DNA of 64,000 bases. Origin: Chloroflexota bacterium (GTDB lineage: Bacteria; Chloroflexota; Limnocylindria; QHBO01). The notes under the pieces are model-generated. The model was not told the origin of the DNA and made no database searches. It worked only from the letters and a program-made list of their open reading frames with translations. The stretch is taken from positions 186,001-250,000 of the forward strand of contig JBBDXT010000007.1 of the NCBI GenBank assembly GCA_040902225.1, read 5' to 3'. Made by a program: the position numbers and the translations under genes. Numbering within the stretch: the stretch's first letter is position 1; each line of letters begins with the position of its first letter. Below are positions 54,232 to 64,000 of this stretch, piece by piece.

Positions 54232-54332
54232 GTTCGTGAAGCTGCCCTCGCGATGAGCGTGAGCGGCCGACGAAACGAGCACCAACCGTGCGGGGCCCCC
54301 AGGTCCTGCGCCCGAGCAACCGCGGAGCTGGC

Positions 54333-54692
54333 ATGGATCAGACCGGACTGCTCTACGTCATCGGCTTCGGAATCGCAGCGTCGATCTTCCTCTTCGGGAC
54401 GATCCTCTTCTCGTGGCTGATCACGCACCGCCGCCGGACGCCCCAGAAAGGGCTCCCCTACGAGTGCGGGATCGACACCATCGGCGACACCTGGTCGCGC
54501 TTCGGGCTCGCCTTCTACCTGTACGCCCTGCTCTTCGTGGCCTTTGACGTGGAGATCGTCTTTGTCTACCTGTGGGCGGTCGTCGTGCGGGACCTCTCCG
54601 TGCAGGGGATCGTCCTGATCGGCGTCTTCCTGGGGATCCTGCTCTTCGGAGAGCTGTACGCCTGGCGAAAGGGTGACCTGAAATGGCGCTGA
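54333..54692 (+). CDS. nuoA: NADH-quinone oxidoreductase subunit A
   Basis: The 119-residue membrane subunit has three TM helices and the family loop [36 protein letters not shown] that shapes the quinone site of complex I. GGAG sits 5 nt before ATG 54333. It overlaps nuoB by 10 bp. It opens an operon running to 62796. Confidence 0.96.
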
Positions 54693-55348
54693 AGACTCCC
54701 CCACCTCCCACCGCCGCGGAAGCGGAAAAGGTTCTCACCGGTGGCACGCCCCCCATCGTCATCCCCGATCAGGCTGGCGACGACCAGCTCCTGACCGAGT
54801 TCGGGATGGAGGAGCACCCGCAGGGCGGCTTCCACGGCCTGCTGGAGGTGATCCCGACCCGCGCGGACATCGTCCTGGACCTGATCCGCGCCAACTCGCT
54901 CTGGCCGCTCCTGTCGGGGCTCAGCTGCTGCGCGATCGAGATGATGAGCACCGCCACCAGCAAGAACGACATCGACCGCTTCGGGATGTTCCCGTTCCGC
55001 GCCTCCCCGCGCCAGGCCGACGTGCTGATCGTGGCCGGCACCCTGACGACCAAGATGGCGGGCCCGCTGGTGCGCCTCTGGGAGCAGATGCCCGAGCCGA
55101 AATGGTGCGTCGCGATGGGCACCTGCACCACATCGGGCGGTCGCTTCAAGCGCAGCTACAGCGTGGTGCAGGGGGTCGACCGGGTGATGCCGGTCGACGT
55201 CTACGTGCCGGGATGCCCGCCACGCCCGGAGGCTCTGATCCACGGCATGATGCGGCTCCAGGAGCTGGTCAAGCAGCGGCGCGGCGAGTGGGCGACCTAC
55301 GTCGATCGCGGCGTGCAGCGGATCGACTGGGAAGGAGACGTGCGCTGA
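54683..55348 (+). CDS. nuoB: NADH-quinone oxidoreductase subunit B
   Basis: The 221-residue subunit binds the terminal [4Fe-4S] cluster N2 next to quinone; the four ligands are visible in LSCCAIEMM (two), MGTCTTSGG and [10 protein letters not shown]. It overlaps nuoA at the start and shares a CTGA overlap with nuoC. Confidence 0.96.
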
Positions 55349-55929
55349 CCGCCCCGGCCAAGGCGGGCGCCCTGGTCCGGCTCCTGCTCGATCGCTTCCC
55401 GGACCTGGCCGCCAGACTGTGGACCGACGAGGACAGCGTCGAGGTCTCGATCGAGGGCGACCGCAACGTGGCCCTGCTCCAGGTGTTGCGCGACGAGCCG
55501 GAGCTCAACTTCTTCTTCCTGGCCGATGCCGCCGCGGTCGACTACGGCGTCACCGAGCATTTCGAGGTGGTCTATCACCTCTACTCCGACCGTCATCCCG
55601 CCTGGCTCCGCGTCCGCGCACGGGTGCATCGCGCCGATCCCCACATCCCGACCATCACCGGCCTGTGGGAGGGAGCGATGTTCCACGAGCGCGAGATGTA
55701 CGACATGATGGGGATCATCTTCGACGGTAACCGCGACCTGCGGCGGATCTACATGTCGCCCGACTACCGCAGCTTCCCGCAGCGCAAGGACTTCCTCCTG
55801 CCCGATGACGCCGCCGACTCATCGGCGGCGGGGGTGCGTCCGCTCGAGCGCCCCGAGACCTGGGACCTGACCCGCCTCTCCGACGAGCTGGGGCCCGGCG
55901 TGATCGCCCATGTCGAGGGCGAGTCATGA
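55345..55929 (+). CDS. nuoC: NADH-quinone oxidoreductase subunit C (probable CTG start)
   Basis: The 194-residue subunit has [18 protein letters not shown] and the family signature [17 protein letters not shown]. No ATG/GTG/TTG lies in frame between nuoB and the conserved N-terminal region. CTG at 55345 overlaps nuoB's TGA as CTGA and has AAGGAG 7 nt upstream, so it is the best start. The alternative GTG at 55288 would overlap nuoB by 61 bp. The stop overlaps nuoD as ATGA. Confidence 0.92.
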
Positions 55930-57200
55930 CCAGCGAGGTGAAGATCCCCGACCCGCTCGACGTGGACCGGGAAGAGGAGGCACGGCTGCGTCAGGTGGCG
56001 GGCCTTCCCCCAGCCAAGGCCCCCGCCGGCGAGTACGCCGGCTTCGAATCGGTGGGGCTGCCGGAGCGGCCGCCGCAGACCGAGCGCGAAGTCGAGGTGT
56101 ACACCCTCGAGGAGGGCGAGATGCTGGTCAACATGGGCCCGCAGCACCCCTCCACCCACGGCGTCATGCGCCTGGTGGTGAAGGTCCGCGGCGAAGTGGT
56201 GATCGATATCGATCCGGTGCTCGGCTACCTGCACCGCGGGATCGAGAAGCTGTGCGAGGAGGCCACCTACACCACGGTCCTGACCTATGTCGACCCAATG
56301 GACTACATCGCGACGATGCACAACGAGCACGCTCCGGCGATGGCCTTCGAGAAGCTGTTCGGGGTCACTGCCCCCAGGCGGGCAGAGTACATCCGCGCGC
56401 TGGTGGTGGAGCTGAACCGGGTCTTTAGCCACAGCCTGATGATGGGCTTCCTGGCCCTCGACATGGGCGGCCTGACCCCGATCCTGTACGGCTTCATCAA
56501 CCGCGACGAGATCGTCGACATGCTGTCGGCGATCAGCGGTCAGCGCATGCTCTTCAACTTCTTCCGGGTTGGTGGCGTCAACTGGGACACCAACGACGAG
56601 TTCCTGTCGCGCCTCGGCACGTGGCGCAGCCACGTCCTGAAGAACGTCGAGATGAGCGAACGGGTGATGACCGACAACGAGGTCTTCCGCTCGCGGACGA
56701 TCGGGATGGGGACCCTCTCCGGCAAGGACGCGATCGCGCTGGGCGTGTCGGGGCCGAACCTGCGCGCCTCCGGCGTGCCGTTCGACGTGCGCAAGGCGCA
56801 TCCCTACTCGATCTACCCCGAGCTCGAGTTCGAGGTGATCACCCAGCCGGGCGGCGACTCGAACGCCCGCTACCTGCAGCGCGTCGCCGAGATCAAGCAG
56901 AGCATCCACCTGATCGACCAGATCGTGGACAAGATGCCGCACGGCGCGGTGCAGGCCCAGGTGCCGGGGATCATCCGGCCGAAGCCGGGCCGGGCCTACG
57001 CGGCCATCGAGTCGCCACGCGGCCTGTACAGCGTGTACGCCATCAGCGACGGCGGGCCGAACCCGTACCGCTTTCGGATGCGCGACCCGAGCTTCATCAG
57101 CCTCCAGGCGATCCCCAAGCTGATGCCCGGCCGGCTCATCGCCGACACGATGGCGGTCATGGCCAGCTTCGACCCGGTGATGGGCGGGGTCGACAAGTAG
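55926..57200 (+). CDS. nuoD: NADH-quinone oxidoreductase subunit D
   Basis: The 424-residue subunit shapes the quinone pocket with NuoB. Signatures: NMGPQHPSTHGVMRLV, VLGYLHRGIEKL, DYIATMHNEH, and the C-terminal DPVMGGVDK. An N-terminal extension of ~60 residues precedes the core. Starts ATGA-coupled to nuoC; nuoH follows with no gap. Confidence 0.96.
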   Translation: MTSEVKIPDPLDVDREEEARLRQVAGLPPAKAPAGEYAGFESVGLPERPPQTEREVEVYTLEEGEMLVNMGPQHPSTHGVMRLVVKVRGEVVIDIDPVLGYLHRGIEKLCEEATYTTVLTYVDPMDYIATMHNEHAPAMAFEKLFGVTAPRRAEYIRALVVELNRVFSHSLMMGFLALDMGGLTPILYGFINRDEIVDMLSAISGQRMLFNFFRVGGVNWDTNDEFLSRLGTWRSHVLKNVEMSERVMTDNEVFRSRTIGMGTLSGKDAIALGVSGPNLRASGVPFDVRKAHPYSIYPELEFEVITQPGGDSNARYLQRVAEIKQSIHLIDQIVDKMPHGAVQAQVPGIIRPKPGRAYAAIESPRGLYSVYAISDGGPNPYRFRMRDPSFISLQAIPKLMPGRLIADTMAVMASFDPVMGGVDK

Positions 57201-58211
57201 ATGGACCTAGACCTGCTGTTCGGTGTCCTGCGCTTCCTGCTGGCCACGACCCTGATCCTGCTGCTGACCGTGCCGACCGCCTTCGTCGTCATCCAGATGG
57301 AGCTCAAGATCATCGCCGGCGCGCAGCTTCGCTACGGCCCCAACCGGGTCGGGCCGTGGGGGATGTTCCAGAGCACGATCCACGGCTTCAAGGTCCTCGC
57401 CAAGGAGGACCACATCCCGGACCAGGCGGATCGCGCAACCTTCACCCTCGCGCCATGGATGGTCTACATGGCGGCCGCCATGAGCATGCTGGTGATCCCG
57501 TTCGCGCCCGGCGCCATCGCCGCCGACTTCAACATCGGCATCGTCTACTTCTTCGCGGTGCTGGGCCTCAGCGTGGTCGGGCTGCTGGTCGCGGGCTGGG
57601 CGAGCTACAACAAGTACTCGCTGCTGGGTGGGCTGCGCAGCGCGGCGCAGATGGTGAGCTACGAGATCCCGCTCACCCTGTCGGTGGTCGGTGCCGTGGT
57701 ACTGGCCGGCACGCTCAACTTCCGGGAGCTGATCGAGTGGCAGCGGGCACATGGCTGGATGCTGATCTGGCAGCCGGTCGGGCTGGTGATCTTCTACATC
57801 GCATCGCTGGCCGAGATCAATCGGACCCCGTTCGACATGGTCGAGGCCGACAGCGAGCTGGTGGCAGGCCCCTTCACCGAGTACTCCGGCATGCGCTTCG
57901 GCTTCTTCTTCTTCGCCGAGTACGTGGCCCTCTTCATCATGAGCGGGATCATGATCTCGCTCTTCTTCGGCGGGTGGCTGGCGCCGTGGCCCTTCCCCGA
58001 CCAGCTGGATGGCTTCATCGGCACCGTCTACGGCGTCATCTGGTTCTTTATCAAGACCTACCTCTTCGTGGCGATCGCGGTCCTGCTGCGCGCCACGCTG
58101 GTCCGGGTGCGGGTCGACCAGCTGATGGGGATGGCCTGGAAGGTGCTGCTGCCGCTGGCCATGGTCAACCTGATCGTCACCGCCGCCGCGGTGCTGGTCT
58201 TCAAGCTGTGA
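57201..58211 (+). CDS. nuoH: NADH-quinone oxidoreductase subunit H
   Basis: The 336-residue membrane subunit has about eight TM helices, RYGPNRVGPWGMFQS, the acidic loops AEINRTPFDMVEADSELVAG and FTEYSGMRFG lining the quinone chamber. ATG at 57201 directly follows the nuoD stop; its TGA overlaps the next GTG (GTGA). Confidence 0.96.
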   Translation: MDLDLLFGVLRFLLATTLILLLTVPTAFVVIQMELKIIAGAQLRYGPNRVGPWGMFQSTIHGFKVLAKEDHIPDQADRATFTLAPWMVYMAAAMSMLVIPFAPGAIAADFNIGIVYFFAVLGLSVVGLLVAGWASYNKYSLLGGLRSAAQMVSYEIPLTLSVVGAVVLAGTLNFRELIEWQRAHGWMLIWQPVGLVIFYIASLAEINRTPFDMVEADSELVAGPFTEYSGMRFGFFFFAEYVALFIMSGIMISLFFGGWLAPWPFPDQLDGFIGTVYGVIWFFIKTYLFVAIAVLLRATLVRVRVDQLMGMAWKVLLPLAMVNLIVTAAAVLVFKL

Positions 58212-59050
58212 CGATCCCGGGCCTTGGCATCCTCAAGGGGCTGCGCCAGACCGCGCGCAACTACTGGGCGCCCAAGGTCACCAACCAGTACCCGGAGTCG
58301 CGCCCGACCATGCCGGACCGATGGCGTGGCCGCCTCGACCTGATCTACGACCCGTTCGGCGAGCACAAGTGCGAGGTCTGCTTCCAGTGCGCACAGGTCT
58401 GCCCGGTGGAGGCGATCGACATGAGCGGCTTCGATTCGACCGGGCAGCGCATCCGCTACGGCCTGCCGGAGATCTACGACGAGCGCAAGGATCCCAACGC
58501 CTATCGCCGCGCCGGCCTGCCCGCGGCGCCGATGCGCAACGCGGCGCGCTGGGACGAGGAGATCGACACGCCCTGGCTGCATGGCGTGATCGACGGCTTC
58601 GGCGGCAAGCCCGAGGCGCTGGTCGCCATCTTCTCCGCCGTCGAGGAGCGCTACGGCTACCTTCCTGAGCGGGCACTGCGCGAGTCGAGCGAGCGGATGT
58701 CGATCCACTGGGCCCAGATCTTCGGAGCAGCCGGGCTGGGCGGCTTCCGTCTCCTCCCGGCCGATGGGCACCTTGTCACCGTCTGCACCTGCGCCGCCTG
58801 CCGCTTTGCCGGCGGCGACGCTCTCCTGACGGCGCTGCGCACGGACCTGGGGATCGAGCCGGGCGAGACGACCGCGGACGGTGCCGTCACCCTCGACACC
58901 AGCGACGAGGTCGCGGCCGGAGCTCTTTCCCCGGCGCTGCGCATCGACACCATGGTCTATGGACCGTTGACCGTGGATCAGGGCCGCCACGTGGTGGCCG
59001 AGCGACGCAGGGCCCCGTCGCGCGGGCGCGCCGCGCAGCCCGTCTCATGA
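58208..59050 (+). CDS. NuoI-NuoE fusion with incomplete Fe-S motifs
   Basis: A 280-residue protein. Residues ~1-95 are the N-terminal half of NuoI with one [4Fe-4S] motif (CEVCFQCAQVCP, Cys 55/58/61/65); the second NuoI cluster is missing. Residues ~135-265 are NuoE: IFSAVEERYGYLPERAL, VCTCAAC with the first Cys pair (193/198), LGIEPGETTADGAVTL. At the second NuoE pair, where Cys-x3-Cys is expected, the sequence is DEVAAGALSPAL: both cysteines are gone. So the usual N1a [2Fe-2S] cannot be fully ligated. The second NuoI motif appears at the C-terminus of the 60415-62796 protein. GTGA overlap with nuoH; overlaps the next ATG. Confidence 0.88.
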   Translation: MTIPGLGILKGLRQTARNYWAPKVTNQYPESRPTMPDRWRGRLDLIYDPFGEHKCEVCFQCAQVCPVEAIDMSGFDSTGQRIRYGLPEIYDERKDPNAYRRAGLPAAPMRNAARWDEEIDTPWLHGVIDGFGGKPEALVAIFSAVEERYGYLPERALRESSERMSIHWAQIFGAAGLGGFRLLPADGHLVTVCTCAACRFAGGDALLTALRTDLGIEPGETTADGAVTLDTSDEVAAGALSPALRIDTMVYGPLTVDQGRHVVAERRRAPSRGRAAQPVS

Positions 59051-60402
59051 CCGACGCGAGCACGGGCCTCTCCCCGCAGATCCGAATCCTGCCCGGCGGC
59101 GACCAGCGGGTGCTGGCGGAGATCGGCGTCGTCGACCCCACCAGCCTGGACAGCTACCGCAAGGCGGGTGGCTACGCCGGCCTGAAGCGCGCGATTGGGA
59201 AGCTGGGTCCCGAGGGCACCATCGACGAGATCGCCATCGCGGGCCTGCGCGGCCGTGGCGGCGGCGGCTATCCGACCGCCGACAAGTGGCGTGCCGCCCG
59301 CGCCGCGGCGGGTGACAGCAAGGTCGTGGTCGCCAACCTGATCGGCGCCGATCCGACCGCGCTTGGCGACCGGGCGCTGGCGGAGGGCAATCCGCATCTC
59401 GTGCTCGAGGGACTCCTGCTCGCCGCCTTCGCGACCGGCGCCTCGGACGCAATCATCGCAGTCCGTCGCGACTGGACGGTGGCCATCGAGCGGCTGCGAG
59501 CCGCGATCACAGAGGCCGAGGCCGCGCACCTCGCCGGCTACCTGGTCATGGGTACGGACTTCTCGTGCGTGGTGCGCGTCTGGGAAGGTGCGGTCGCCCT
59601 GGTCGCGGGCGAGGAGACGGCCCTGCTGGCCGCCCTGGCCGGGGATCGCGGCATGCCCGTCATCCGGCCCCCCTACCCCACCGAGCGAGGGCTAGGCGGC
59701 GCGCCGACCACTGTGCAGAACGGCGAGACGCTGGCGCACGCGGCCTGGATCGTGAGCCATGGAGCCAAGAAGTTCCGCGCCATCGGCTCGAAGGACGCTC
59801 CCGGCACAAAGCTGGTCACCATCTACGGGCGCGTGGCACAGCCCGGGCTGGTCGAGGTGGCGCTGGGAACGCCGCTCTCCGAGATCGTGGCGCTGGCCGG
59901 TGGCGGGACCGGGGCGACCAAGGCGGTCTTCGTGGGCGGCCCGGGCGGTGGCGCGCTGCGTGCCGACCAGCTGGACACCGTCTACGACTACGCTCCGCTG
60001 CATGCCGCCGGGGCCGGCATCGGCCTGGGCCAGTTCCTGGTGGCCGATGCCGAAACCTGCATGGTCGACTCCGCCCGCTTCTTCCTCGACTACTCCGCCC
60101 GCGAGGCCTGCGGCAAGGCGGTCCCGTGCCGGATCGGCACCAAGCGGCTGGTGGAGACCCTGGACCGCATCCTGGCGGCGAGCCCGCGGCCCAACGACGT
60201 GCTGCTGCTGCGCGAGCTGGCCCGCAAGATGACCGACACCGCCCTCTGCCACCTCGAGGCTCGCGCACCGGGACCGATGCTGACCACGCTCGACCGCTTC
60301 CCCGACGAGTACCGCGCCCACGCCGAACGGGGCGAATGCCTGGCCGGCTCATGCACTGCGTCGCAGCTGCCACCGCTCCTGACGCCACTGGCAGGCCTCT
60401 AA
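59047..60402 (+). CDS. nuoF: NuoF-like flavoprotein subunit with altered NADH and N3-cluster sites
   Basis: The 451-residue protein aligns with NuoF throughout: FMN loop LRGRGGGGYPTADKW (~67-81), AGEETALL (~188-193), PTTVQNGETLA, and the N3 cluster region. Differences: the acidic loop normally NxDExEPG reads NLIGADPTALGDR (~97-109), removing the Glu that faces NADH; and ESCGKCTPC reads EACGKAVPC, so the middle cluster Cys is Ala 358. The fourth ligand C401 is present. FMN binding looks possible, normal NADH oxidation doubtful. ATGA overlap upstream; 12 bp before the next gene. Confidence 0.88.
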   Translation: MTDASTGLSPQIRILPGGDQRVLAEIGVVDPTSLDSYRKAGGYAGLKRAIGKLGPEGTIDEIAIAGLRGRGGGGYPTADKWRAARAAAGDSKVVVANLIGADPTALGDRALAEGNPHLVLEGLLLAAFATGASDAIIAVRRDWTVAIERLRAAITEAEAAHLAGYLVMGTDFSCVVRVWEGAVALVAGEETALLAALAGDRGMPVIRPPYPTERGLGGAPTTVQNGETLAHAAWIVSHGAKKFRAIGSKDAPGTKLVTIYGRVAQPGLVEVALGTPLSEIVALAGGGTGATKAVFVGGPGGGALRADQLDTVYDYAPLHAAGAGIGLGQFLVADAETCMVDSARFFLDYSAREACGKAVPCRIGTKRLVETLDRILAASPRPNDVLLLRELARKMTDTALCHLEARAPGPMLTTLDRFPDEYRAHAERGECLAGSCTASQLPPLLTPLAGL

Positions 60403-60414
60403 GATGCACCGGCC

Positions 60415-62796
60415 ATGAGCTTCGCCACCGACGGCAACGGGAACGGCAAGGGCGCGCCGCTGCGCCCGGAGGACTACACCCCCATCTGGCCGATGGTGCC
60501 GGGCACCCGCAAGATCAGCGTCACCATCAACGGCGCGCAGGTCGAGGCCGAGGAGGGGCAGACCATCCTGCAGGCCACCCGCGTGCTGGGGATCGACGTC
60601 CCGACGCTGTGCTACGAGCCGAAGCTGGCGCCCTACGGTGCCTGCCGCATCTGCGTGGTCGAGGTCGAGGGCCAGGAGACCACGCCGATCAGCTGCGGGA
60701 CGCAGATCACCGACGGGATGGTCATCACCACCCACTCCGATCGGCTGGTCGAGAACCGGCGCATGGTGCTGGAGCTGATCTTCAGCGACCACGACGCCTA
60801 CTGCCTGCCGCCGTGCCAGTTCAAGTGCCCGACCAGGGTCGACATCCCCGGCTACCTGAAGCAGAACACCCTGGGCAATTGGGAGGAGGCGACGCGCATC
60901 CTGAAGCGCTCGCTGCCGTTCCCGGCCATCCTGGGCCGCGTCTGCCCCGCGCCGTGCGAGACACACTGCCGGCGCGAGGAGGTCGACACCGCCATCGCCA
61001 TCCGCGACTCGCACCGCTACTGCGCGGATCGGGTGCTCGAGGTCGACGCTCCGGCCCCCACGCCGTGGCCCAAGGAGCCCGACTCGGGACGCCGGGTGGC
61101 GGTTATCGGTTCCGGCCCGGCAGGCATGTCGGTGGCCTATTACCTCCAGCTGCGCGGCCACCACTGCGACGTCTTCGAGGCCGATCCGGAGCAGGGCGGC
61201 ATGCTGCGCTACGGGATCCCCGCCTATCGGCTGCCGAAGGAGTGGATGGACCGCGAGCTGAACCACGTCTGGGAGCTGGGCGCCACCTTCAGGCCGAACA
61301 TGCGCCTCGGTCGGGACTTCCACGTCGCCGACCTGCTGGAGCAGGGCTACGACGCGGTCTACGTGGGCATCGGCTGCTACAAGTCCAACGAGATGGGGAT
61401 CCCCGGCGAGGACGCGGACGGCGTGGTCAACGCCCTGGAGAACCTCTACAACAGCTCGCGCGGCGTCGAGATTCCCGCGCTGAAGGACGCGCGGGTGGTG
61501 GTCATCGGCGGCGGCTTCACGGCCATCGACTGCACGCGCACCAGCCTGCGCCAGCGCGCTGCCGAGGTGACCCTGGTCTACCGCCGCGACCTGAAGGACA
61601 TGCCTGCTCAGGACGAGGTCCACGAGGCGATCGAGGAGGGGGCGCGCGTCATCTTCCAGGCAGCACCCGTACGGATCGTGACCGACAAGAACAACAAGGT
61701 CACCGGCGTCGAGTTCCAGCGCATGCACCTGGGCGAGCCCGACGAGAAGGGTCGCCGTCGCCCGGAGCCGATGCCCGGCACCGAGTTCACCGTGAGCTGC
61801 GACACGGTGCTGGGTGCCATCGGCCAGGGACCCGAGCTGACCTGGATCGAGAGCGAGCCCGAGGAGATCCGCGCGCAGCTCGAGACCAGCCGCCGCGGCA
61901 CCCTGGTCAGCGAGGACGACATCTTCCGCACCGGCCTGCCGAAGGTCTTCGCGTCAGGCGACGTGCGCGCCGGAGCGACGACCGTGGTCGAGGCGATCGG
62001 AGAGGGGCGGCGCGCCTCCTATGCGATTGACTACTGGCTGCGCGGCCACAACCTCGACGATCCGCAGGTGCGCCGCATCGTGAGCGAGCCGCAGCCCAGC
62101 TTCCTGACCATCGTGCCCTTCACCGACGACGTGAAGGAGCCGAAGGCGGTGATGGGCAAGCTCGACGCGGCCACGCGCAAGCAGGACTTCGGGGAATACG
62201 AGTTCGGCTACACCGGCGACCAGGCCATGGCCGAGGCGGCGCGCTGTTTGCAGTGCACCTGCGAGGCAATCGGCCACTGCGACCTGCGCGAGGCCGCCAT
62301 CGAGTACGAGACGACGCTCAACATGGCGATCGACGAGCGCTCGATCCAGGACAACCCGTACGTCGGCGCCAACCACGGCTACGGCCGGGACGAGACGCAC
62401 TCCTTCATCCTGCGCGACTACTCCCGCTGCATCGACTGCGGCCGCTGCGCGCAGGTCTGCAAGGACATCGTGGGTGCCGGCTGCTACGACTTCATCGGCA
62501 AGGGCTTCGACTCGCTCGTCACCACCGCGGACTTCGTCTCCCTCAACGAGACCCCGTGCGTGTCCTGCGGCCGCTGCGCCGAGACATGCCCGGTCGGCGC
62601 CCTGATGCCGCGGCCACGGACCCTCGAGACGTACCAGCTCGACATGAGCCGATGCATCTTCTGCGGCATCTGCGCCGACGCCTGCCCGTACGACGCCCTG
62701 CGCTGTGGCCCTGAGTTCGAGTTCAGCGAGTACCAGCGCGATCTGCCGATGCTGGACATCCTCGAGATGTCCGACCGGGAGCGACCCACCAGGTAG
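60415..62796 (+). CDS. NuoG-type [2Fe-2S] / GltD-like FAD-NAD(P)H / multi-ferredoxin fusion, with NuoI C-terminal half
   Basis: A 793-residue fusion in the place of NuoG. Residues ~32-100: plant-type/NuoG [2Fe-2S] (Cys 66, 77, 80, 94). ~126-205: GltD-type Cys-rich [4Fe-4S] region (HDAYCLPPCQFKCPT; GRVCPAPCETHC). ~226-545: FAD and NAD(P)H domains with IGSGPAG and IGGGFTAID, as in glutamate synthase small subunit/NfnB. Then CLQCTC (611-616), CIDCGRCAQVC (672-682), CVSCGRCAETC (715-725) and CIFCGICADACP (747-758) with PEFEFSEYQRD after it, which matches the second half of NuoI. No molybdopterin domain. It could itself accept electrons from NAD(P)H and wire them to complex I. Confidence 0.9.
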   Translation: MSFATDGNGNGKGAPLRPEDYTPIWPMVPGTRKISVTINGAQVEAEEGQTILQATRVLGIDVPTLCYEPKLAPYGACRICVVEVEGQETTPISCGTQITDGMVITTHSDRLVENRRMVLELIFSDHDAYCLPPCQFKCPTRVDIPGYLKQNTLGNWEEATRILKRSLPFPAILGRVCPAPCETHCRREEVDTAIAIRDSHRYCADRVLEVDAPAPTPWPKEPDSGRRVAVIGSGPAGMSVAYYLQLRGHHCDVFEADPEQGGMLRYGIPAYRLPKEWMDRELNHVWELGATFRPNMRLGRDFHVADLLEQGYDAVYVGIGCYKSNEMGIPGEDADGVVNALENLYNSSRGVEIPALKDARVVVIGGGFTAIDCTRTSLRQRAAEVTLVYRRDLKDMPAQDEVHEAIEEGARVIFQAAPVRIVTDKNNKVTGVEFQRMHLGEPDEKGRRRPEPMPGTEFTVSCDTVLGAIGQGPELTWIESEPEEIRAQLETSRRGTLVSEDDIFRTGLPKVFASGDVRAGATTVVEAIGEGRRASYAIDYWLRGHNLDDPQVRRIVSEPQPSFLTIVPFTDDVKEPKAVMGKLDAATRKQDFGEYEFGYTGDQAMAEAARCLQCTCEAIGHCDLREAAIEYETTLNMAIDERSIQDNPYVGANHGYGRDETHSFILRDYSRCIDCGRCAQVCKDIVGAGCYDFIGKGFDSLVTTADFVSLNETPCVSCGRCAETCPVGALMPRPRTLETYQLDMSRCIFCGICADACPYDALRCGPEFEFSEYQRDLPMLDILEMSDRERPTR

Positions 62797-62887: not shown

Positions 62888-64000
62888 TCAGGCGCTGGCC
62901 AATGGCAGTCGCTGTTGCACGACCGCGTACGGATCCTCGAGCTCCCAAGATCTGCCGAGCTCCCAGACAGGCGCCGCGAGCGAGAACAGAGCCGGCGTCG
63001 CAACGTAGAACCGGCCCCGCTTCTCGCCCATTGGCTCGAGCAGCCCGAGTTCGACGAGCCGCTTCAGATCACGGCCGCCGGCGTGTTCCGAGATCTCCGC
63101 GTTCTCGTGGTATTGGCCGTTCCGGACACGGAATCGCTGTGCGGCATCGAACAGGGCCAGCACCGTGCGTTCTGGCAAGCCATCACGGGCTGACCGGTCG
63201 GTTAGCACCGACCACAGCCGTTCAGCCTGGCGGGCCCGCCGCATGAGGGTCCGGGCCTGCCGGAAATGCGCGGTGAGGTTGAACCGAATCCACGGTGAGG
63301 CGTCGTTCCACGGCTGCCATGTGCCGCGTCCTACCTCAGCGAGAACGTCGTAATAGGCCTGCGTGTTCCGGCCCAAGTACTCCTCGACGCTCGCGAATTC
63401 GGTCTGCAGGATGCCTTCCTGCGACAGGACAAGCGACTGAATGATGCGGGCCATGCGCCCGTTGCCGTCGCGGTAGGGATGGATCATGGCCAGGTTCAGG
63501 TGAGCCATTGCGGCGCGCACGAGGGCGGGCACGCTCGTGGAGTCGTGAAGCTCGGCTACCAGCTCTTCCACTAGCCCGGGAACCTCGTCTCCGGGCGGCC
63601 CCTCGTAGACGATCTGACCCGATGCCTCGTTATGCACGTAGATCGGCCCTGGCCGGAAGAGGCCCGGCCCCTTGGCCATGTCGTACTTGAGCATCATGAA
63701 GTGAAGGCTGTTGATTAGCCCCTGGCTGTAGGCGAAGTGCGGGTCATTCGCCAGCTGCAGGACGTACGTCATCGCGTCCCGATAGCCCGCGATAGCCTGG
63801 CGCGTCTCCTCGGCGGCACCGAGCGGCTCCTCGCCCTCCGCCATCGCCATGGCATCGGCCAAGGTGACGATGTACCCCTCGATGGTGTTGGAGCCTTGGA
63901 TCGCGCGTGCGAACATGACGCGGCGTAGCGACCCCGTCCAACGCCGGGGGCTCTGAGCCACCGCGTATCGAAGGTTGGTACGTAGATCGTCGATCTTCGC
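62888..64000 (-). CDS. Fic-domain AMP-transferase-like protein (truncated at window edge)
   Basis: The frame is open from 62888 to the right edge; codons continue in frame beyond GTG 63961 (KIDDLRTNLRY before it), so the true start lies outside. The Fic motif HPYRDGNGRMAR is intact and should transfer AMP or a related group to a target hydroxyl. An N-terminal inhibitory motif SNTIEG (S-x3-E-G) is present, marking a self-inhibited class II protein. A C-terminal winged-helix-like region (~280-340) is typical of this branch. It converges with the nuo operon and has no visible antitoxin partner in the window. Confidence 0.9.
   Translation of the reverse strand, partial: AKIDDLRTNLRYAVAQSPRRWTGSLRRVMFARAIQGSNTIEGYIVTLADAMAMAEGEEPLGAAEETRQAIAGYRDAMTYVLQLANDPHFAYSQGLINSLHFMMLKYDMAKGPGLFRPGPIYVHNEASGQIVYEGPPGDEVPGLVEELVAELHDSTSVPALVRAAMAHLNLAMIHPYRDGNGRMARIIQSLVLSQEGILQTEFASVEEYLGRNTQAYYDVLAEVGRGTWQPWNDASPWIRFNLTAHFRQARTLMRRARQAERLWSVLTDRSARDGLPERTVLALFDAAQRFRVRNGQYHENAEISEHAGGRDLKRLVELGLLEPMGEKRGRFYVATPALFSLAAPVWELGRSWELEDPYAVVQQRLPLASA

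Follow-up and report, generated by a model that had tools for sequence, protein, structure and literature searches.

The window, the whole 64,000-nucleotide stretch of Chloroflexota DNA analysed here, ends inside a complex I operon (Table 1). The genome that contains it is 2.28 Mb in size, 99.4% complete and has one NuoH; named relatives (records of Candidatus Limnocylindrus, Aquidulcis and Limnocylindrales) assign the window to the Limnocylindria (Chloroflexota). NuoJ-K-L-M-N lie about 2 kb downstream of the NuoG-position protein (GI'') on the same contig (C7:250823-256759), and the genome has a full set of genes for the membrane arm and for the quinone module (NuoA, B, C, D, H and J-N). The gene for GI'' is separated from nuoJ by reverse-strand genes, among them one for a Fic-family-like protein with an HPYRDGNGR motif (window positions 62888-64000, minus strand); in a related locus, L050, the two genes are almost adjacent.

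Table 1 Complex I genes and gene parts in the window, with positions counted from its first nucleotide.
Feature	Position	Strand	Matches and remarks
NuoA	54288..54692	+	PF00507
NuoB, N2 cysteines SCC, GTC and PGC	54683..55348	+	PF01058/TIGR01957
NuoC (start approximate)	55345..55929	+	PF00329
NuoD, quinone-site motifs HPSTHG and MDY	55926..57200	+	PF00346
NuoH, stop overlapping the NuoI'-E start by 4 bases	57201..58211	+	PF00146
NuoI'-NuoE fusion, 280 aa, GTG start	58208..59050	+	TIGR01971 positions 2-66, PF01257
NuoF homologue, 451 aa	59047..60402	+	without NADH-site acids, one N3 cysteine lost
GI'', NuoG-position protein (GltD-NuoI''), 793 aa	60415..62796	+	profile matches, alignments, predicted fold
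I'', C-terminal half of NuoI	62605..62796	+	TIGR01971 positions 71-112, 53.2 bits, top family

NuoI is a conserved core subunit of complex I. In this operon the sequence shows it cut in the linker that separates the two cluster motifs, with the N-terminal half fused to NuoE and the C-terminal half fused to the end of a flavoprotein, in agreement with a preliminary description of the DNA that had proposed a NuoI split across two polypeptides. The N-terminal half comprises residues 1-78 of the NuoI'-NuoE fusion and carries the first CxxCxxCxxxCP motif (Cys55, Cys58, Cys61 and Cys65; CEVCFQCAQVCP), while the second motif (Cys747, Cys750, Cys753 and Cys757; CIFCGICADACP), followed by PEFEFSEYQRD, stands at the C terminus of GI''; both motifs were found where that description had placed them. 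Two further ferredoxin motifs of GI'', a (Cys672-682) and b (Cys715-725), lie upstream of this one (motif c) and had been missed in it. Residues 12-77 of the fusion scored 49.0 bits on positions 2-66 of the curated NuoI model TIGR01971 and 55.0 bits on NF004536. The matches of the two halves are complementary and do not overlap: GI'' residues 735-776 scored 53.2 bits on TIGR01971 positions 71-112, compared to 26 bits on the best generic ferredoxin model, and for each half taken alone the top families were NCBIfam NuoI models. The eight NuoI cysteines show no substitution in alignments of 33 and 31 relatives. The halves share with NuoI/Nqo9/TYKY the N-terminal helix, the YP...RG segment, both cluster motifs and, in the I'' half, the PxFExxEYxR segment after the second motif; they differ in the division at the linker between the motifs and in being carried by two proteins.

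When joined, the halves gave one continuous TIGR01971 match of 106.4 bits, just below the curated cut-off of 113.05 bits, and aligned over the full length to NuoI of plants and Escherichia coli by phmmer. On a second profile built from 13 canonical Chloroflexota NuoI sequences, the true join added 22-29 bits over the N half; the N half followed by motif b gained 6-12 bits, and the reversed order gained nothing. Motifs b and c together scored no better than c alone on this profile, and b plus c as the NuoI domain was not supported. Within the genome itself the two halves were the best NuoI matches, with E = 4.8e-13 and E = 1.6e-12 ahead of 6.4e-6 for the next one; a complete NuoI, the presence of which had been named beforehand as an argument against the split, was not among its 11 NuoI matches. 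Likewise named beforehand was a grouping of the C-terminal motif with generic ferredoxins, against which stands its higher score on NuoI.

The remainder of GI'' contains a [2Fe-2S] domain (Cys66, Cys77, Cys80 and Cys94), an HxxxCxxxCxxxC motif at residues 126-138 and GltD-type FAD/NAD(P) domains at about residues 130-545. By sequence, some 700 residues of the protein aligned with chains of NfnABC/StnABC (E to 3.5e-162), and its predicted fold matched the same group over about 715 alignment columns (E = 3.6e-60). The FAD and NAD(P) folds and a conserved YRR segment are retained, and GI'' belongs to the StnC/NfnABC kind of NADPH:FAD flavoprotein, with a probable preference for NADPH read from the YRR motif and the relation to StnC. 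StnC itself is a NuoG-like and GltD-like NADPH subunit (PMC10482914). Motifs a and b scored as HydA/HoxU/NuoG instead of NuoI, align without gaps to StnC/NfnA and keep a fixed distance of 33 residues, with 22 residues between b and c, in 113 of 113 cases; with this Stn-like spacing a and b would pair with each other, leaving the third motif, c, as the spare one. A NuoG model matched in the genome only at positions 1-95 and 97-214, both inside the GltD protein. His200 of GI'', invariant in 33 sequences, aligns to StnC Lys170, and Ile144 stands at the position of StnC Cys114. The lysine ligates the FAD-proximal cluster of StnC and is a glutamate in NfnB (PMC10482914); together with cysteines, His200 of GI'' could provide a Cys3His ligand set for the FAD-proximal [4Fe-4S] cluster.

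The distribution of the split was explored across the class Limnocylindria and other Chloroflexota. With E up to 1e-8, NuoI matches were detected in 113 of 117 class genomes, most of them to one half, and none of the 117 had a NuoI over the curated cut-off; of 14 other Chloroflexota, 13 yielded a complete NuoI in the same search. By pattern, both halves were located on different open reading frames in 90 of 114 loci, and six more N halves, with enough sequence upstream and carrying WPE for YPE, were recovered by tblastn; a complete NuoI of the search pattern was found in none of these 114 loci. The N-half pattern was wide enough to admit variants such as KFRG for R-x-RG. Complete NuoI-like matches in some class genomes (L018, L028, L029, L035 and L039) were rejected: they adjoin distant NuoD/NuoB homologues in group-4-hydrogenase-like operons, not complex I. 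The order A-B-C-D-H-I'E-F-GI''-J-K-L-M-N is common to families f1, f2 and f3, and f4/f5 have two clusters, B-D-I'E-F-GI'' and A-C-H-J-K-L-M-N.

Some Chloroflexota have the cassette NuoB-NuoI'E-NuoF-GltD-NuoI'' in addition to a canonical nuo operon that is complete. These four genes, as B-I'E-F-GI'', are carried outside the class by families f11, f19 (genome sizes of about 4-14 Mb, for the most part >5 Mb), f33 and f36, together with a separate nuo operon with complete NuoI, and f29 has an A-B-C-D-H-I'E-F-GI'' operon plus a complete NuoI elsewhere. The four-gene cassette comprises a homologue of every complex I subunit that bears a cofactor, and of no other subunit. The NuoI split is ancient. 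Individual loci displayed further arrangements: three tandem, nearly full-length GltD-NuoI'' copies by one NuoI'E and one NuoF (L178; G328:C1:1115112-1122585), a lone second GltD-NuoI'' copy with NuoB, NuoI'E and NuoF not nearby (L177; G358:C1:10326000-10345000), and a contig with two incomplete complex I operons, one A-B-C-D-H-I'E-F-GI'' and the other a distant A-B-C-D (L184; G167:C115). In L053 and L054, both from metagenome assemblies, the GltD-NuoI'' gene is apparently frameshifted or broken.

The two other input-module proteins have lost parts of their cofactor and substrate sites. The NuoE-like domain (residues 127-264 of the fusion) has no second cysteine pair for cluster N1a in those rows of the class alignment that were displayed; in f5 and in the cassettes outside the class the domain is truncated. 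In NuoF, ANLIGADP stands for N-x-DESEPG; the acids of this segment (DE..E), which matter for NADH binding, are missing in 31 of 31 readable cassette copies and kept in 4 of 4 canonical ones. The window copy reads CGKAVPC at cluster N3, and 14 of 15 NuoF rows of f1-f3 lack one N3 cysteine, with N3 intact in f4/f5 and in the cassettes outside the class. The FMN-site residues GRGG and GEE are retained, so that NuoF may still bind flavin. Canonical and cassette copies are separated in a NuoF tree; a NuoB tree had long branches and was not relied on.

The system is complex I in a variant form rather than a new type of machine. It shares with complex I (NDH-1; NuoA-N) the subunits NuoA, B, C, D, H, J, K, L, M and N in one operon, the N2 cysteines of NuoB and the quinone-site motifs of NuoD. 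It differs in that NuoI is on two chains in place of a single NuoI with two [4Fe-4S] motifs, and in that the GltD flavoprotein replaces a NuoG with [2Fe-2S], HC3 and molybdopterin-fold part; furthermore, instead of NuoF with NADH site and N3 and NuoE with N1a, the homologues are those depleted at these sites, the N3 cysteine being lost here in addition to the NADH-site acids. The best solved relatives of NuoI'E, NuoF and GI'' are the electron-bifurcating transhydrogenases StnABC/NfnABC (8oh5, 9bov and 9n5u), which consist of three homologous subunits (NuoE-like, NuoF-like and GltD plus NuoG-like) and likewise have a large subunit with [2Fe-2S], GltD FAD/NADPH and two ferredoxin clusters. Compared to StnB, of whose 584-aa chain only residues 106-525 are aligned, NuoF here is without the thioredoxin-like N terminus and the ferredoxin-like C terminus; compared to StnA, the second cysteine pair of the [2Fe-2S] site is missing in NuoE; and compared to StnC, in addition to the lysine and cysteine replacements, the NuoG C-terminal region after motif b is absent from GI'' and the NuoI half is there instead. 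Unlike those of StnABC/NfnABC, the genes here sit within a membrane complex operon. A literature search that covered few subscription journals turned up no account of NuoI in two parts or of complex I with a GltD subunit. In the papers found on these bacteria complex I is not discussed, and a Ktedonobacteria paper gives nuo only as a module; a paper on a Chloroflexi genome, of Limnocylindria or of another class, reports a plain 14-subunit complex I (PMC3971608).

The explanation that we favor, with a probability of about 0.7, is that the locus codes for a single complex I, complete and proton-pumping, in which the split NuoI is rebuilt across chains and the GltD-type FAD is the working electron entry. 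The operon product is predicted to couple quinone reduction to proton pumping. In the assembled enzyme the NuoI halves would come together next to NuoB and re-form the ferredoxin fold of NuoI. In NuoI and other 2[4Fe-4S] ferredoxin folds, each cluster is bound by three cysteines of one motif and a fourth from the other; by this rule both N6a and N6b would lie across the two chains, each with three cysteine ligands from one chain and the fourth from its partner. The preliminary description had placed N6a and N6b on different chains, which holds for the motifs but, if the fold is reassembled, not for the clusters, each of which would be ligated by both chains. The joint of the halves would also lock the input module to the quinone module. 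The 42-residue C-terminal extension of E. coli NuoI reaches NuoE, NuoF and NuoG (PMC8357420), which makes the linker of roughly 50 residues from NuoI' to NuoE sterically plausible. Electrons, probably from NADPH, would pass from the FAD through the clusters of the GltD and ferredoxin parts to the split NuoI (N6a and N6b), then to N2 in NuoB and to quinone. Entry at the GltD FAD is the simplest reading because the flavoprotein is intact and NuoE and NuoF are damaged; the latter two, with an impaired NADH site and, in f1-f3, a broken N3, would stay as structural or regulatory pieces.

The same split could also serve an enzyme in which NuoF and its FMN still work and the GltD FAD provides an additional port, so that electrons of NADH, NADPH and quinone are joined or split as in StnABC. 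The nearest relatives of all three proteins do bifurcate with both flavins active (PMC10482914), the residues of the FMN loop are retained, and N3 is unbroken in f4/f5 and in the cassettes from outside the class. We nevertheless consider this unlikely, given the absence of the NADH-site acids from every readable cassette NuoF, the N3 cysteine loss in f1-f3, the incomplete N1a site of NuoE and the lack of the StnB N- and C-terminal domains used for ferredoxin. More doubtful still is that motif c pairs with b in its own chain as a private ferredoxin domain, or holds one cluster alone, with NuoI' as an anchoring remnant. In the cassettes outside the class, motifs b and c can be aligned to NuoI positions 41-111 with 56-59 bits, and AlphaFold2 lends no support to an inter-chain domain: in monomer models the core folds were fine, and the I' half alone and GI'' residues 635-793 had pLDDT <50. 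These monomers are not diagnostic, however, since the latter segment includes motifs a and b, which have solved relatives. Against a pairing of c with b, the gapless alignment and fixed spacing of a and b indicate that b is already taken, b adds nothing to c on the Chloroflexota NuoI profile, and the four I' cysteines are all invariant, unlike those of a remnant. That the split is an assembly or gene-calling artefact is hardly credible, for although the relatives are mostly metagenome-assembled genomes, the break point, the fusions and the gene order repeat in about 100 independent assemblies, single-contig genomes included.

Going beyond the favored explanation of a rebuilt NuoI and GltD entry, we tentatively propose, as a possibility with the odds somewhat against it, that both NuoI clusters bridge two chains, that the cassette is an exchangeable redox wire and that in Limnocylindria, where it would be the only wire, the complex is an NADPH:quinone oxidoreductase.

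A stable, class-wide division of NuoI, with each half in a different module, offers a natural experiment on the way in which the input and quinone modules of complex I connect, and on whether the electron wire can be passed on as one piece. Automatic annotation can hide such a variant. The arrangement suggests that abundant uncultured bacteria of soil and freshwater may use a complex I that takes its electrons from a GltD flavin and not from the FMN of NuoF.
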